Below, one piece after another: positions 1-38,710 of a stretch of DNA of 38,781 nucleotides (its first letter is position 1; every line of letters starts with the position of its first letter). The notes beneath the pieces were generated by a model. It was not told where the DNA came from. It was given only the letters and a program-made list of their open reading frames with translations, and made no database searches. Origin of the DNA: Candidatus Afararchaeum irisae (GTDB lineage Archaea > Halobacteriota > Halobacteria > Halobacteriales > Afararchaeaceae); the NCBI GenBank assembly GCA_034190545.1, contig JAXIOF010000049.1, positions 1 through 38,781 on the forward strand, written 5' to 3'. The position numbers were made by a program, and so were the translations under genes.

Positions 1-43
1 GAAAATCTCCGATTTTCGTGATGACGAGAGACTACGTCTCTCG
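1..43. repeat. Two triloop hairpins at the window edge
   Basis: Two short palindromes lie side by side: GAAAATC-TCC-GATTTTC at 1-17 (it may extend beyond the window) and CGAGAGAC-TAC-GTCTCTCG at 25-43. Both have three-base loops closed by a C-G pair, as in the larger arrays of this window. The second supplies the last codons and stop of the adjacent tnpB remnant. The first is the reverse complement of the core of a hairpin at 33867-33885. Confidence 0.75.
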
Positions 44-1240
44 AACCACCAAACAGCCGTTACTCCTATCCTGTGACGGACTCAGAGTTACCGTCGCTCG
101 CATATTCTCCGCCGCGTTCAGGTCGCTGTTGGCGACCAAATCACACTCTGAACACACATACAACCCGCGCTCAACACGGTTAGAATCTGCTTCTGTGCCA
201 CACTCACAACATGTTTTCGAGGTTTTTAATTCGCCTTCGAGAACGCGCTCTACACTGATGCCGCGTTCTTCAGCTTTGTATTCAATGTGGCTCAACAGCG
301 TTTCAAACGCCCAATCGTGTAGCCGCTTGTTTCCGTGACGACCCCAATCAGAGGCATCACGAATCTTCTTTGGATGGCCCACGGCTATCGTTCCGACATT
401 GCGGGCGGCACATTGCTCGACAATATCTTTCGACAGTGCGTGCAAGAAGTGGTCTTGCCGCCGGGACTTCTTCTGCCGAAGTCGTTGTGCCTCGTTGCTC
501 GGGCCGTCCTCACCTGCTGTCTCGTATTCTTCGTGACGGAAGTAATGAGCATCCTCTTTCAGAGCGTTGCCTGGATACAGCAGTGTCTCGTCACCAACAG
601 AGACAGCCGCCGTGTTACAGATACCAAGGTCAATACCAGCCGTTTTCTCGCCGGGACGCTCAGGCGTCTGAACCTGCATCTCACAGACGAAATGCAGTTC
701 CCACTGGTCGCCAGTCCAGACTGCTCGAACAGTTTGGACGGATTCAACATCAGCGAGCGTTTGGTCGTCTGCTTGAATCGTATACTCACAGAGAATGTAG
801 TCTGCGGCATACCGAGACTCTTTCATGTTCGTTCCTTTTGAGAGACGTACACGGTTGTACTCGGTATCCAGTTTGAAGCCCTGATTTTTCCACGTCACAG
901 TTGAGCGCGGGTGTTCGTCGCCATGTTTACGATACCCGGGCGAGTTCGCGTCAGGGTCGTCTTTCTCGTACTACGAGACGAACGCTTCACCGAGTTCTTG
1001 GAGAACTCGCTGACTAGACTGCGAGTGTAAGTCTTCATAGCGGTCGTGGTTTTTGAGGTACGAAGAGAGTTCGTCACCGTCTGGTATATGATTAATAGCA
1101 TCCCACACACGCGAAATCGTCCATCGCCCGATGTTCCAGAGTTTGCTGGCGGCGAAGCCATGCGAATCGAGGTCGTCAGAGACTTGCGAGTGATTAGTAA
1201 CACTCGCTTTCAGTGTCCGAGTGACGACTTGATTCGACAC
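32..1240 (-). pseudogene. TnpB RNA-guided nuclease, interrupted by one amber codon (copy 1)
   Basis: Reading from 1240, the frame runs 89 residues to a TAG at 971-973 and then continues in the same frame to 32, giving about 402 codons. At the TAG the related intact protein (37454-38710) has Trp in QSWFNKDD, so TGG to TAG is a sufficient single change. Downstream the RuvC-I GIDLGICN, CxxC zinc-finger pairs and RuvC-III NSDLNAAEN motifs are intact. The canonical RuvC-II Glu position reads AVGHPK. The C-terminus stops at CLVVRET, where relatives continue for about 25 more residues; the last codons come from a hairpin. This makes it a recently inactivated tnpB. A start at 896 could in theory express a truncated C-terminal protein. 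Confidence 0.85.
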
Positions 1241-6106: not shown

Positions 6107-6278
6107 CATCCTCCCCGCCGTAAACGGCGAGACTTCCCGTCCCGCAGTTGGGATATTTGCCGGTCTACGATACGACCTGTTCTCTCGTGCGAAACGTCCC
6201 GCTCTCGCGGTCGAACAGGTGTACCGATGGCTGTGCCACGCAGCCGTTACTCCTATCCTCACCATGAGGACTCGGAGT
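6103..6278 (-). ncRNA. Candidate omega (reRNA) guide RNA of TnpB copy 2
   Basis: In characterised IS200/IS605 systems the guide RNA is processed from the tnpB 3' end plus the element right end, with the guide in the adjacent host DNA. Here the tnpB tail, a conserved GGATATTTGCCGG-type stretch and the terminal hairpin are arranged in that way and shared with copy 3. The guide would then be read from the 3' end of the TauE gene. Expression and exact ends are inferred. Confidence 0.4.
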
Positions 6279-7460
6279 TATCTCTGAACTTCGTTCAGAG
6301 GTTAACGAAGCTTTGCTTCGTGATATCTTCTGCCGCATATTCTCCGCCCCATTACAATCCGCGTTGGCTACCAATTCACACGACGAGCAGACGTACAGTC
6401 CCCGTTCGACACGGTTCGACTTCGTGTCGTCACCACATCGTGAACACGTTTTCGAGGTGTCCCACTCGTTCTCCTTCAGCACCTCGACACCGCGAATCTC
6501 GCCTTTGTATTCGAGGTACTGGTAGATGCGGTCGAACGCCCACGAGTGCAGCTTCTTGTTGCCAGTCTTACCCCAGTCAGATTCTCGCACGTCTTCGGGC
6601 CAACTCACTGCGAGCGTGCCGACACCGCGTTCGACACACTCTGTGATGATGGTGTCTGTCAGCGTGTGGTAGAAGTGTGTCTCGCGCTCTGTGAGTTTTC
6701 GACGTGCCCACATCGACTTTTCGGACGGCCCGTTCTCACCCTCAGTGTCGTACTCCGCTCGAGTGAAGTAGTGCTTGTCTTCTTTGAGTGAGTTGCCGGG
6801 GTAGAGAACGTATTCGTCGGGGAAGGCGACCGTGGCGATGTTCTTGATTCCGAGATCGATGCCTGCCACTCCGTTGCCAGCAGAGTCGTTGGTTTCGAGG
6901 CTGACTTTGCAGACGAAGTGCAGTTCCCACTCCTCACCATTCCAGACTGCGCGAACGCTCTGCACCTTGGTTACTTCTGAGAGGTCAACGTCAGGGCGTG
7001 TCTGGTACTCACAGAGGAGGAAGTCCGAGCGGTGGTCTTTCAGGTTCGAGCCTTTCGAGAGGCGGACTTGCTGGTGTTTCGTGTCAAGTTTGAATCCGTC
7101 TTCTTTGAAGGTGACTGTACTTCGTGGTCGGGTGTCGCCGTGTTTGCGGTAGCCGGGCGGGTTCGCCTTGTCGTCCTTGTGTCGCAAGTCGAACCATGAC
7201 TGGAAAGCGTCGGAAAGTTCTTCGATGACTTTCTGACTGGATTGTGCGTTCAAATCTTTCCAGCACTCTCGGTTCTTCATGTACGCTTTGAGCGTTCCTT
7301 CGTCTGGGATTTCGCCTGTTTCGCCCCAGATGCGGTCGGCTGTCCAGCGTGCGACGTTCCAGATTTTTGAGGCGGAGTCTCCGAGCGAATCGAGGCCGTC
7401 GCAGACTTGTCGCTGGTTCTGGATGAAACCAACGTAGGTGCGCGTGACCTCAATCGCCAT
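6165..7460 (-). CDS. tnpB: TnpB RNA-guided nuclease (IS1341-type), copy 2
   Basis: This transposon-encoded nuclease would use an RNA from the element right end to cut DNA and so favour retention of the element. It has 431 residues. The N-terminal wedge/helical part contains KIWNVARW and the RRPRST-like region. RuvC-I is GIDLGIKN, two CxxC pairs (CSRC, CSSC) form the zinc finger, and RuvC-III is ANADCNGAEN. The canonical RuvC-II Glu is not visible (AVSWPEDVRE), but YKGE lies about 45 residues on. Between RuvC-III and the tail there are about 15 residues (SRSKASLTSERSS region) that relatives lack, encoded by a 45-nt double hairpin. The frame is open throughout. Start ATG at 7460. Confidence 0.92.
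   Translation of the reverse strand: MAIEVTRTYVGFIQNQRQVCDGLDSLGDSASKIWNVARWTADRIWGETGEIPDEGTLKAYMKNRECWKDLNAQSSQKVIEELSDAFQSWFDLRHKDDKANPPGYRKHGDTRPRSTVTFKEDGFKLDTKHQQVRLSKGSNLKDHRSDFLLCEYQTRPDVDLSEVTKVQSVRAVWNGEEWELHFVCKVSLETNDSAGNGVAGIDLGIKNIATVAFPDEYVLYPGNSLKEDKHYFTRAEYDTEGENGPSEKSMWARRKLTERETHFYHTLTDTIITECVERGVGTLAVSWPEDVRESDWGKTGNKKLHSWAFDRIYQYLEYKGEIRGVEVLKENEWDTSKTCSRCGDDTKSNRVERGLYVCSSCELVANADCNGAENMRQKISRSKASLTSERSSEITPSPHGEDRSNGCVAQPSVHLFDRESGTFRTREQVVS
6279..6328. repeat. 45-nt double-hairpin insertion inside tnpB copy 2
   Basis: Two triloop palindromes, CTCTGAAC-TTC-GTTCAGAG (6282-6300) and ACGAAGC-TTT-GCTTCGT (6305-6321), are joined by GTTA. Compared with tnpB copy 3 this is an extra 45 nt (15 codons) that keeps the frame. 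TATCT occurs at 6279-6283 and again at 6324-6328, exactly 45 nt apart, like a five-base target duplication. The insertion sits in the variable linker after RuvC-III. Confidence 0.75.
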
Positions 7461-7565: not shown

Positions 7566-7852
7566 CGCCAGACTGCGTCTGGCGGGCAACCAGAATCCTG
7601 TGGATTCTGGGTGACGTCCCCAGAACGCGAAGCGTTCTGGTGTGCCGAACGAGACGCTTCGCGTCTCGTCAACGTCCCCAGAAATCTTCGATTTCTGGTA
7701 TGCGAACAAATCGCGCAGCGATTTGTCAACGTCCCCAGAACCCGAAGCGTTCTGATATGCGGACGAGAGCTTCGCTCTCGTCAACGTTCGAAAGACGCTT
7801 CGCGTATTTCGAGCCCACAAGACCGAAGGTCTTGTGAACGCCCTGAAGGGCG
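7566..7852. repeat. Array A: eleven tandem triloop hairpins in the left end of IS copy 2
   Basis: Hairpins start at 7566, 7590, 7620, 7649, 7678, 7706, 7736, 7762, 7789, 7816 and 7839. Most have a 9-bp stem and a three-base loop, mainly TTC or GAA, closed by C-G. Spacers of 6-9 nt alternate between a CAACGTCC type and a TATGCGA type, giving a unit of about 57 nt that contains two different hairpins. Two members carry single stem mismatches (7736-7754 and 7789-7811). The array splits the CCCGCCCT/AGGGCGGG left-end hairpin of the transposon. There is no coding potential. Confidence 0.9.
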
Positions 7853-32232: not shown

Positions 32233-32383
32233 TCAAACTCTACGAGTTTGATGGCTCGTGAATCTAAGATTCACGAACGCTCGTTGAGGGTGTCGTCAGA
32301 AGCGGAGCTTCTGACTGCTCGCAAATCTACGATTTGCGATGTCTCTGAGGGAACCTCAGAGGCTCGTGAACTTTCGTTCACGA
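32233..32383. repeat. Array D: six triloop hairpins after tnpB copy 4
   Basis: Hairpins lie at 32233-32251, 32256-32276, 32296-32314, 32319-32339, 32343-32361 and 32364-32383, with stems of 8-9 bp. Loops are TAC, TAA, GGA, TAC, GAA and, in the last, TTTC. Spacers are short (2-4 nt) except 19 nt between the second and third. The last two hairpins form the 3' end of the tnpB reading frame: the stop codon at 32356-32358 lies in a stem. Confidence 0.88.
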
Positions 32384-33624
32384 TGGGGCTTGTCGGTGGA
32401 CTCCGCCTCTGACTCCATAACAGAGTACGAGACAAATCCTCGGTTCGGCTTCACAGTCCCCGACTTCAGGGCGAGTTGACTGTCGCCCGTCCGCCGTGAG
32501 TCATGTAGCCCACGACGGACAAACCGCCATCCCACGTTCTTCGCCGCGTTATAATCTGCATTCGCCGTCGCACCACACTTCTCACACTCGAAGAAATCGC
32601 GCTCCGTTCGGTTGCCATCGCTCGTATGACCGCACTCACAACACCGCTTCGACGTATTCTCAGGGTCAACGTACACGACTGTGATACCAAGTTCCTCAGC
32701 CTTGTACTCGACGTACTTGACGAGTTGGGCGTGCGCCCACTGGTGGAACTTACGCTTGCTCGGCATCGAGTCGCGGATGTGCGTCAAGTCCTCGAACGCG
32801 ATGTGCGTGCAGTCGTAGGCGACTGCCTCCGCGAGCAACCGATTCGACACCCTGTGCAGGTAGTCACGGTTGTACCGTTCTTCGCGGTTATCCCGCTGGA
32901 CGAGTGTGCGATGCGCGGACTCAGTGCCGGTTTCTTGGAGGCCGCCGCGAACGCGCTCGAACTCGCGGTGTTCGTGCAAGAGTTCTTGGCCTGACTCGAA
33001 GTGAGCGGTGCTGGTGACGGCGAGGTTTTCGATGCCGAGGTCAACCCCGAGAACTGTCCTGTCCTCGGCGGGTGACTCGTCGGCATCGGGCTTCGGCTTA
33101 CGGAAGCCGAGGTGCAGAAAGTAGTCACCATCACGCGCTGTCAGCGTCGATTCCGTCACTTCCCACTCGTCGCTGTCGAGGTACTGGTACTGGTAGCCGT
33201 CTTCGTCGTCGGGCAGTACCAATTCGCACCGCACTCGACTGTCGGTGGTGGCGAGGGAGACGGTGTTGTCATCGAACAGGGTCATCGTGTTGGCGTCGTA
33301 CTTCACCGTGGGAGCGGTGAACTCGGGTTTCGAGTAGTTACGACCCTGCTGTTTGCGTTCATCGACGCCTTTCAGGGCTTGTGCGGCTTGGAAGCACGCG
33401 AGGATGGCGTGTTGACTCCCGAGACGAGTTTGGTCACGAACATCGTCGTATGCGAGTGACTGGAGTTTCCGCTTACGGGTTTCGTAGTGTTCCCAGCCGA
33501 TGTCCGTGGCAATGTTCGCACCTGTGCGCCACTCGTCAATCGTGTCTTCGAGCAGGTCGGCCTGCTCAGGGGACACGGAGAGGCGCGTTATTGCGGTGCG
33601 TCTCAGGTAGTCGTCGTCCGACAC
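32356..33624 (-). CDS. tnpB: TnpB RNA-guided nuclease, second subtype (copy 4)
   Basis: An RNA-guided nuclease of 422 residues from an IS200/IS605-type element. RuvC-I is GVDLGIENLAV, RuvC-II is AFEDLTHIRD with the canonical Glu, the zinc finger is CCECG and CEKCG, and RuvC-III is NADYNAAKN, so all catalytic residues are present. The C-terminal GGLHDSRR-like region and SGTVKPN are typical of this haloarchaeal subtype. The last eight or so residues (RERKFTSL) are encoded by a triloop hairpin and are probably not original. Codons such as CGC and ATC are favoured, unlike the neighbouring chromosomal genes. Confidence 0.93.
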   Translation of the reverse strand: MSDDDYLRRTAITRLSVSPEQADLLEDTIDEWRTGANIATDIGWEHYETRKRKLQSLAYDDVRDQTRLGSQHAILACFQAAQALKGVDERKQQGRNYSKPEFTAPTVKYDANTMTLFDDNTVSLATTDSRVRCELVLPDDEDGYQYQYLDSDEWEVTESTLTARDGDYFLHLGFRKPKPDADESPAEDRTVLGVDLGIENLAVTSTAHFESGQELLHEHREFERVRGGLQETGTESAHRTLVQRDNREERYNRDYLHRVSNRLLAEAVAYDCTHIAFEDLTHIRDSMPSKRKFHQWAHAQLVKYVEYKAEELGITVVYVDPENTSKRCCECGHTSDGNRTERDFFECEKCGATANADYNAAKNVGWRFVRRGLHDSRRTGDSQLALKSGTVKPNRGFVSYSVMESEAESTDKPHRERKFTSL

Positions 33625-34009
33625 ACGTTCAAAGAATGCCTATGGTTACTTAATAGTTGGTGTCTGACTGATGTGTGGGTGACGCGCTCCTCCCCGCCCT
33701 ACTGCGTATGCGAATCTTCGATTCGCTTGTGCTGGAAAACTCTTAGAGTTTTCTGCATCACAGAAATTGAAGATTTCTGAACGTCCTCAGAACGCTTCGC
33801 GTTCTGATATGCGAACGAGAGCTTCGCTCTCGTTAACGCCACTCGCTTCGCTGCGTTGCGTTGTGTTGAAAATCGGAGATTTTCATACGTATGCGAATCT
33901 CTGATTCGCAACACTTCTTGAGGACGTCCCGAGATCTCCGATCTCGTGGGCTCAGAAATCTGAGATTTCTGAACGGGGACTCCGCGCTACCACACAGTTG
34001 AAGCTTCGT
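33625..34009. other. Upstream region of tnpB copy 4 (contains array B)
   Basis: This 385-base stretch between tnpB and npdG holds the probable tnpB promoter (ACTATTAAGTAACC on the minus strand, about 20-30 nt before the ATG), a GC-rich left-end sequence and array B. It has no gene. Confidence 0.6.
33710..33972. repeat. Array B: about ten triloop hairpins in the left end of IS copy 4
   Basis: Clear hairpins are at 33710-33726, 33735-33753, 33761-33779 (one G-T pair), 33787-33807, 33814-33834, 33867-33885, 33892-33910, 33930-33946 and 33952-33972. A weaker GC-rich imperfect one lies at about 33840-33865. Loops are three bases (TTC, TTA, GAA, TTC, TTC, GGA, TCT, TCC, TGA). The pair at 33782-33838, including its ACGTCC and ATATGCG spacers, is nearly the same as 7730-7786 in array A. 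Confidence 0.88.
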
Positions 34010-34826: not shown

Positions 34827-34835
<9 letters not shown>

Positions 34836-35011
34836 AATCTTTGATTTGCGAGCCAGCGAAATCTACGATTTCGCGACGGAGCAAATTTCTCTGAAATTTG
34901 CATGGAACAGAATCGTAGATTCTGTGACGGAGCAAAAATTTCTGGTTTTTGCTAACACGCGAGAACTCCGTTCTCGCGGGCTCAGAAATCTGAGATTTCT
35001 GAACGGGGACT
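34827..35011. repeat. Array C: tRNA-Glu 3'-end repeats with seven triloop hairpins
   Basis: GACGGAGCA, the last nine bases of tRNA-Glu, occurs at 34827-34835, 34875-34883 and 34926-34934 (periods of 48 and 51 nt). Between copies lie hairpins at 34833-34849, 34856-34874, 34881-34901, 34907-34925 and 34932-34952 (two G-T pairs), then 34958-34978 and 34982-35002. All have three-base loops. The final 34 nt (34978-35011) are identical to 33948-33981, the outer end of array B. No tnpB is adjacent, so this is a non-coding array abutting a tRNA. Confidence 0.88.
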
Positions 35012-37267: not shown

Positions 37268-37453
37268 TTCAGCGAGAGAATCCCGCCCTTTCCGTGAGGG
37301 ACGAGTGTTCCGACACTTGTTGTCGGAACCGAGGACCGAACAGGGCGGGAGTGAATCGCGTAAGCTCCGGTGAGGGGCCGTCACTGCTTCGCTCGGCTGG
37401 ATATTCAACGTCGACACGAAATCATTAAGTCATTGTACTGTCATAGTCTATGT

Positions 37454-38710
37454 ATGGTGAATCTGGTCACGACACGCACCATTACAGCGGCACTCACCAA
37501 CGACCGTGAGGGTGTCGTGCGTGACCTGGATTTACTCAGTCGTTCCGGCAGCAAAATCTGGAACGTTGCTCGGTGGATCGCTGGCCGCATCTGGGACCAC
37601 ACCGGAGAAATTCCGGATGAGGGACCGCTCAAGTCCTACATGACGAACCAACAGTGCTGGAAAGATTTGAACTCGCAGTCAAGTCAGGCAATCGTCGAAG
37701 AATTGGCTGGCGCTTTCCAGTCGTGGTTCAACAAAGACGACCCCGATGCCAACCCACCGGGCTACCGCAAAGACGGCGATGAACGACCACGTTCAACAAT
37801 CACGTTCAAAGAAGACGGCTTCAAACTCGACACGAACCACCAGCAAGTCCGCCTCTCCAAAGGCAAGAACCTGAAAGACGGGTGGAGCGACTTTGTTCTC
37901 TGCGAATATGACACCGGCTCGGACGTATCCCTCACCAATGTCGAAGACGTCCAACAGGTCCGCATCGTCTGGAACGGCGACCACTGGGAGCTTCACTTCG
38001 TCTGTAAGGTCGCCATCAACGCCGCCGACTCGTTTGGCGAGAAGACGGCTGGTGTTGACCTCGGTATCTGCAATACGGCAGCTGTCTCTGTCGGTGACGA
38101 AACCGTGTTGTATCCGGGCAACACGTTGAAAGAAGACGCACACTACTTCCGGCAGGAAGAGTACGACACGGAAGGTGAGAACGGCCCCAGCAACCATGCT
38201 GAATGGGCACGCCGCAAGAAATCCCGGCGGCAGACCCACTACCTGCACGCTCTCTCGAAAGACCTCGTGAACCAATGTGCAGATCGTGGTGTGGAGACGA
38301 TAGCAGTTGGCCATCCGAAAAACATCCGCGAGGATGAAGACTGGGGCAGGCACGGCAACAAGCGCCTCCATGACTGGGCGTTTGAAACTCTGCTCAGTCA
38401 CATCGAGTACAAGGCTGAAGAACGTGGTATTGAGGTTGAGCGGGTCGATGAGTACGAACTGGCTACGTCGATAACGTGCTGTGAGTGTGGCATGAAAGCG
38501 GATTCAAACCGTGTTGAGCGTGGCTTGTACGTGTGTGAGAACTGCGAGTTGGTCGCTAACAGCGACCTGAATGCGGCTGAGAATATGCGAGCGACGGTAA
38601 CTCCGAATCCAGAGATGGATAGGAGTAACGGCTGTCTGGCCCAGCCATCGGTCCGCCTGTTCGACAAATCAACGGGGAGAGTAGCCCCACAAGAACAGGT
38701 CTGCCCGTAG
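37454..38710 (+). CDS. tnpB: TnpB RNA-guided nuclease (IS1341-type), copy 3
   Basis: An RNA-guided nuclease of 418 residues and the best-preserved relative of copies 1 and 2. The helical N-terminus contains KIWNVARWIAGRIW, the RuvC-I motif is GVDLGICN, zinc-finger pairs are CCECG and CENC, and RuvC-III is NSDLNAAEN. The usual RuvC-II Glu position reads AVGHPKNIRE; a Glu in YKAEERG about 45 residues on could serve instead, as described for some TnpB/Fanzor proteins. The C-terminal tail DRSNGCLAQPSVRLFDKSTG is full length. The ATG at 37454 matches the start of copy 2; an upstream in-frame start at 37370 would run through the left end. Confidence 0.93.
   Translation: MVNLVTTRTITAALTNDREGVVRDLDLLSRSGSKIWNVARWIAGRIWDHTGEIPDEGPLKSYMTNQQCWKDLNSQSSQAIVEELAGAFQSWFNKDDPDANPPGYRKDGDERPRSTITFKEDGFKLDTNHQQVRLSKGKNLKDGWSDFVLCEYDTGSDVSLTNVEDVQQVRIVWNGDHWELHFVCKVAINAADSFGEKTAGVDLGICNTAAVSVGDETVLYPGNTLKEDAHYFRQEEYDTEGENGPSNHAEWARRKKSRRQTHYLHALSKDLVNQCADRGVETIAVGHPKNIREDEDWGRHGNKRLHDWAFETLLSHIEYKAEERGIEVERVDEYELATSITCCECGMKADSNRVERGLYVCENCELVANSDLNAAENMRATVTPNPEMDRSNGCLAQPSVRLFDKSTGRVAPQEQVCP

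Follow-up and report, generated by a model that had tools for sequence, protein, structure and literature searches.

Why does one tnpB gene of Candidatus Afararchaeum irisae carry, near its 3' end, 45 extra nucleotides made of two small hairpins between short direct repeats? The gene lies in the window, that is, the whole 38,781-nt stretch of DNA that was analysed, where the features of interest are the following.

6165..7460, minus strand: tnpB copy 2, carrier of the insertion (431 aa; OrfB_IS605 and Cas12f1-like TNB domains by Pfam)
6112..6283, minus strand: sot0042 omegaRNA overlapping the 3' end of tnpB copy 2 (RF02656, 95 bits, model positions 1-174; position 1 adjoins the insert)
6279..6283, plus strand: left TATCT direct repeat (reads AGATA on the coding strand; the omegaRNA model starts with these bases)
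6284..6323, plus strand: unique insert of 40 nt, flanked by the TATCT repeats (total gain 45 nt)
6324..6328, plus strand: right TATCT direct repeat
6282..6300, plus strand: triloop hairpin 1, CTCTGAAC-TTC-GTTCAGAG (8-bp stem, TTC loop)
6305..6321, plus strand: triloop hairpin 2, ACGAAGC-TTT-GCTTCGT (7-bp stem, TTT loop)
37370..38710, plus strand: tnpB copy 3, without the insert, with which copy 2 was compared

We propose, with a probability of about 85%, that the 45 nt are a tiny, non-coding mobile double-hairpin element (DHE) that was inserted in-frame into tnpB at AGATA, the 5' boundary of the guide RNA. The preliminary description of the locus had reported that copy 2 exceeds copy 3 by 45 nt, consisting of two triloop hairpins with GTTA as their linker and TATCT repeats on either side, and that 15 residues are gained without a change of frame. 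The coordinates confirm the former (the repeats are spaced exactly 45 nt, and both hairpins have perfect stems with the GTTA linker between them), and the latter holds as well, the 431-aa frame staying open. In the minus strand copy 2 reads ...GGCAGAAGATA-TCACGAAGCAAAGCTTCGTTAACCTCTGAACGAAGTTCAG-AGATAACTCC..., the homologous loci ...CAGAAGATAACTCC.... Compared with copies 1 and 3 of the window, neither of which has the 45 nt, these come after ENMR, and copy 2 has a further 3 extra nt downstream. Folded as DNA, 71 nt of the minus strand reach -12.7 kcal/mol (z = -3.74; 0 of 200 shuffles as stable), and the insert is the only site in the window for either hairpin sequence at up to 3 mismatches on both strands.

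By its domains and its overlapping 3' RNA, the host gene product qualifies as an IS200/IS605 TnpB with an omegaRNA, predicted to perform RNA-guided cleavage. Its Pfam TNB domain ends at residue 374, ahead of the 15 added residues, and its matches to solved TnpB/Cas12f chains end at residues 361-383. The AlphaFold model (14 rows) is poor, with a mean pLDDT of 48.4 and all of residues 381-431 below 50, and therefore says nothing firm on the added residues. A phage origin of the region was rejected: the 3' region matches none of 50,697 phage records, and viral contigs yielded no relative of the protein.

Homologues without the 45 nt and with a single TATCT had been named as the check on an insertion, and such homologues are the rule. 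Among the best 80 of the 206 haloarchaeal homologous loci found (not independent, because several share one genome), the 45 nt are missing from all 80, and 79 contain AGATA (the complement of TATCT) once, while L118 reads AGATG. With 80 of 80 loci empty, the 45 nt of tnpB copy 2 are an insertion and no ancient part of the gene. A random junction would show a direct repeat of at least 5 nt with a chance of ~0.005, which makes the TATCT repeat suggestive, not proof, of a target duplication; a 5-bp duplication, as first suggested, is plausible.

The double-hairpin pattern matches three places in the genome, namely the window, C2:8521 and C36:53160. The copies at C2 and C36 sit in an unrelated 264-bp repeat with palindrome ends, which is 99.6% identical between the two places and ends in an IS605-like palindrome. 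Two base pairs of stem 1 are changed between the window and these copies, both of them compensated (CTCTGAAC -> CTCTAAGC), the counterpart of hairpin 1 being CTCTAAGC-AAA-GCTTAGAG; stem 2 is identical in all three, with a TCC loop at C2 and C36 versus TTT in the window. The linker is GCTA versus GTTA in the window, both loops differ, and GAT comes next in all three. Given these differences between the window copy and the others in stem 1, in the linker and in the two loops, an assembly artefact derived from the C2 and C36 copies is unlikely. The 80 empty loci and the presence of the two-hairpin unit inside another repeat of the same genome support the earlier proposal that the hairpins move as a unit. 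The target duplication fares less well, because at the edges of the C2 and C36 copies that correspond to the TATCT edges of the window no direct repeat is present. Their left context, TTGTCT, resembles the TTATCT of the window, and TATCT may accordingly reflect a choice of target or belong to the end of the element, instead of being a true duplication.

With a relaxed pattern run over 293 genomes of the order, the family of the window DHE counts three copies, all in one genome, so its dispersal rests on that genome; the stem-2 pattern matches in 7 of the 293 genomes, the double unit in the source genome only. A search of the genome for a 264-bp repeat without a DHE gave the two filled copies and one 34-nt end match, and a search of plasmids gave a single 33-nt end match.

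Other double hairpins occur in the same tnpB/omegaRNA region. Among the best 80 of the 206 loci, four (L068, L091, L113 and L115) have a double hairpin of 54-60 nt in the loop of the helix GGCTGTG/CACAGCC, as does tnpB copy 1 of the window, and nine (L047, L051, L053, L055, L068, L075, L083, L086 and L118) have another one in the loop of the right-end palindrome, of 47 nt each or 45 nt in L083. Over 1435 bp, L050 and L051 share 99.8% of their bases (3 differ), and a single, precise DHE of 47 nt, with a 4-nt direct repeat, sets them apart; this could be a gain, or a precise loss between short direct repeats of the kind described in haloarchaea in the accessible part of PMC3119063. Of the 9 right-end carriers 7, and of the 4 loop carriers 2, are closer to some non-carrier than to any other carrier. 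A tree of tnpB, made by a quick method from 79 rows (78 loci and copy 2) and with 31 of 76 inner branches weak, has 8 changes for the 9 right-end carriers and 3 changes for the 4 loop carriers. L052 and L119, in which the regex anchor is absent, were left out of the tree and of the insert survey, and a later reading showed none of the three inserts in them. The distribution of DHEs on the tree is patchy, which fits gain as well as loss.

Inserts within coding sequences are 45, 54 or 60 nt long, and those after the stop codon 47 nt (8 of 9) or 45 nt (one); inside genes the DHE inserts keep the frame. The direct repeats are of 5, 4 or 0 nt depending on the double-hairpin family, which points to no single chemistry of insertion. 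Yet another pair of hairpins (GGAAAATC/CAAAAAGC) occupies the loop within a palindrome (CCTCGGGG/CCCCGAGG) at L145:18465-18508 and L157:8041-8084 (reverse strand), with outer flanks that differ between the two places, and L181 has a member of the loop family, which we call DHE-B, inside a similar palindrome.

The representative of DHE-B in the window is cut by the end of the contig.

1..48, minus strand: DHE-B type double hairpin in tnpB copy 1 (48 of 54 nt; the full 54 nt at C36:8-61)

C36 starts with this sequence and then resembles the 3' end of tnpB copy 1, so the window contig and C36 may join there. DHE-B was searched in 293 sampled genomes with the pattern TGGTTCGA-N8..30-TCGTCATCNCGAA-N7..30-TTCGAACGA, which gave 271 copies (a hand-transcribed count) in 109 genomes, the reversed control pattern giving 0 matches in the same 293. 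MITEs are defined by terminal inverted repeats that match a resident transposon and by a target duplication of its length. The ends of DHE-B, TGGTT and AACGA, are imperfectly inverted (TGGTTCGA/TCGAACGA), and the hairpins between them vary in sequence and length; both pair to a loop of at most 5 nt in 29 of the 37 parsed copies, 8 being imperfect. In 13 aligned copies of 60 nt, 97.2% of the cells are paired and 7 pairs are changed on both sides, which 0 of 500 shuffles reach; the arms of DHE-B are conserved in structure and not in sequence.

G precedes DHE-B in 36 of the 37 parsed copies and C follows it in 35. The empty site is found in 76 of the best 80 of 206 loci of the first tnpB family, and in all three aligned homologues of L183 (71-80% identical) in a second one. 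These flanks and empty sites mean that DHE-B inserts precisely between G and C, without target duplication. Perfect palindromes of at least 6 bp surround 16 of 36 copies versus 5.0% of 3667 control G|C sites. Six of these 16 copies are at one tnpB site and four in one DHE hairpin; collapsed by hand they come to about 7 of 27 target types, and an excess remains. DHE-B prefers G|C and palindromes, with 20 of the 36 copies lying outside palindromes and with no constant target oligonucleotide other than G|C in the 37 parsed copies. The flanks of the DHE-B copies in L182 (1669-1727, reverse-strand coordinates), L196, L206 and L211 place each of them inside a right-end family hairpin, which in L206 is a diverged one.

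How would such elements move? We propose that DHEs are moved in trans, in the form of folded single strands, that their targets would be unpaired sites or loops, and that the inserts which survive would be those tolerated by the frame and fold of tnpB and its omegaRNA. The leading candidate for the mover is an HUH Y1 transposase (IS200/IS605 TnpA or RAYT-like) acting in trans, as has been proposed for REPINs, and we regard this part of the explanation as possible though doubtful. The genome has three Y1_Tnp matches (two without stops, one with a stop), DHEs are located in IS605 ends, and IS605 elements use a single-stranded DNA intermediate and have near-terminal palindromes according to the accessible text of PMC3119063. 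However, 33 of the 109 DHE-B genomes have no Y1_Tnp match, and the target of DHE-B shows no constancy beyond G|C. Y1_Tnp matches are present in 76 of the 109 carriers versus 110 of 184 non-carriers (Fisher p = 0.10; Spearman 0.115, p = 0.049), a weak co-occurrence that lends the candidate little support. One of the genomes without a Y1_Tnp match, G103, has 16 copies, the highest DHE-B count.

A search of open PubMed Central papers found no description of these double hairpins of haloarchaea. Work on Allomyces is said to have dealt with double-hairpin elements of fungal mitochondria. The double-hairpin elements of fungal and sponge mitochondria also consist of paired hairpins, look mobile and sometimes lie in genes, at positions that tolerate them and without a frameshift (PMC2800124, from the portion available); these are mitochondrial, and the likeness is one of shape, with no homology expected. 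SMR-A and SMR-B of Haloquadratum walsbyi (this and what follows on them from the accessible parts of PMC3119063) resemble DHEs in being haloarchaeal and, by their size, non-coding. SMR-A makes no target duplication, and its targets are palindromes near the ends of IS605-type elements and of PATEs; DHE-B agrees with this in part, having no target duplication and a share of its copies in palindromes, whereas the window DHE has a 5-nt repeat. SMR-A is ~110 bp long, bears prominent inverted repeats at its termini and is uniform in sequence within each type, and the SMR-B HqIRS41 has 80 bp; DHEs, with 40-66 nt, two triloop hairpins and variable arms, share neither this size nor this uniformity. They are set apart from SMR-A (HqIRS42/43/55) by description and not by sequence. 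The PATEs of the same paper, palindromic and haloarchaeal, recall the context at C2 and C36, where the repeat that holds the DHE copies is PATE-like; a PATE is similar to an IS605 end, while the DHE has been inserted into a repeat of that kind.

REPINs, the bacterial REP doublets, have two hairpin-forming halves, constant outer ends and compensatory changes, as do DHEs, with the compensatory changes of REPINs lying in the spacer hairpin (PMC3116915, consulted in part). They are built of two inverted REPs with conserved 16-mers and, in the main group, a GTAG tag (partial texts of PMC3116915 and PMC3733652). The DHEs have no such 16-mers or tag, DHE-B having its own constant ends, which the window DHE lacks. 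They also differ in their variable arms, in their archaeal host and in having no clear dependence on Y1, while REPINs are associated with RAYTs in the available part of PMC3116915; in our counts of Y1_Tnp, to which the source genome contributes, the RAYT subfamily is not distinguished from other matches. DHEs are a little-described group of tiny hairpin-pair elements, in which the arms differ among copies and the folded shape is constant. Tentatively, they could constitute a haloarchaeal class of minimal transposable elements of 40-66 nt, defined by shape (two triloop hairpins, with arms freely replaceable between constant short ends), which would move without a dedicated transposase and would prefer the loops of other hairpins, above all those of TnpB guide RNAs and transposon ends, nesting in each other. 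A widespread, dispersed family with variable arms and a kept fold makes the movement of REP-like palindromes testable in tractable haloarchaea.

The insert might instead be functional for tnpB copy 2, as a 5' hairpin tag that alters the processing of the omegaRNA or as a useful C-terminal stretch. The sot0042 model starts on the first base of the repeated AGATA, so the insert is directly upstream of the modelled RNA. Haloarchaeal sotRNAs, the setting of RF02656, are treated as omegaRNAs, and processing of their 5' end has been suggested, in the part of PMC12558985 that was accessible; these points and the kept reading frame are in favour of a function. Nevertheless, a function is unlikely, considering that the insert is present in a single copy among the loci examined and that the tests made here show no effect. 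The preliminary description had also considered that the insertion could alter the scaffold of the guide RNA, which is not borne out: the sot0042 model still matches over its full length (1-174), with 95 bits in copy 2 versus 91.4 bits in the insert-free L050. The scaffold looks intact, and the effect of the insert on the omegaRNA is likely limited to a 5' extension before processing. The Rfam gathering score of sot0042 is 88; among six loci scanned it is reached by L050 alone, a single insert-free control barely above the cut-off, and the five loci with DHEs inside the RNA fall below it, so that such DHEs may affect annotation. TnpB guide RNAs, relatives of the Cas12 RNAs, can gain hairpins in one step with the frame kept, which is a direct source of scaffold variation.

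The abundance of triloop hairpins in this genome also speaks for the mobile-element reading. In 385 kb there are 105 perfect triloop hairpins with a stem of at least 8 bp, versus 9-13 in five dinucleotide shuffles; 95 of them are closed by C:G, and there are 77 distinct left arms. Loops of 4-7 nt show no comparable excess in the same 385 kb, an apparent excess of 4-base loops being largely an artefact of masked letters (16 versus 9-12 in shuffles on recount). The window insert is two members of this triloop population. It could be imagined that the hairpins were formed in place, by template switching or hairpin-templated repair and without transposition of a unit, given that the stems are mostly perfect yet differ widely among copies, as if the arms had been copied from each other, and that the hairpins are often close together (66 of 138 neighbour gaps are of at most 10 nt for stems of at least 7 bp, the commonest gap being 6). 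We consider this quite improbable: the window, C2 and C36 copies have in common the linker GYTA, stem 2 and the GAT after it, and DHE-B has constant ends and a constant linker at unrelated sites, constant ends being something that formation in place would not yield. That the 45 nt are ancestral and were lost from the homologues by repeat-mediated deletion between the TATCT copies, as described for Haloquadratum, is highly improbable, since, even if haloarchaeal indel edges bear short direct repeats and 10 of 11 decidable cases are deletions (accessible part of PMC3119063), it would need a precise loss in 80 of 80 homologous loci of many genera, besides the absence from copies 1 and 3 of the window, and is disfavoured by parsimony.

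The genome also has arrays of up to ten hairpins, some of them beside tnpB genes. In the window, small-loop hairpins whose stems differ form arrays of 6-9 at 7566-7836, 32233-32383, 33710-33972 and 34833-35002, three of the four beside tnpB, and by eye their stems partly recur in a similar order in other arrays of the genome. At 32343-32383, two hairpins overlap the 3' end of a distant fourth tnpB (32356-33624, minus strand), so its C-terminus is read through part of the array.
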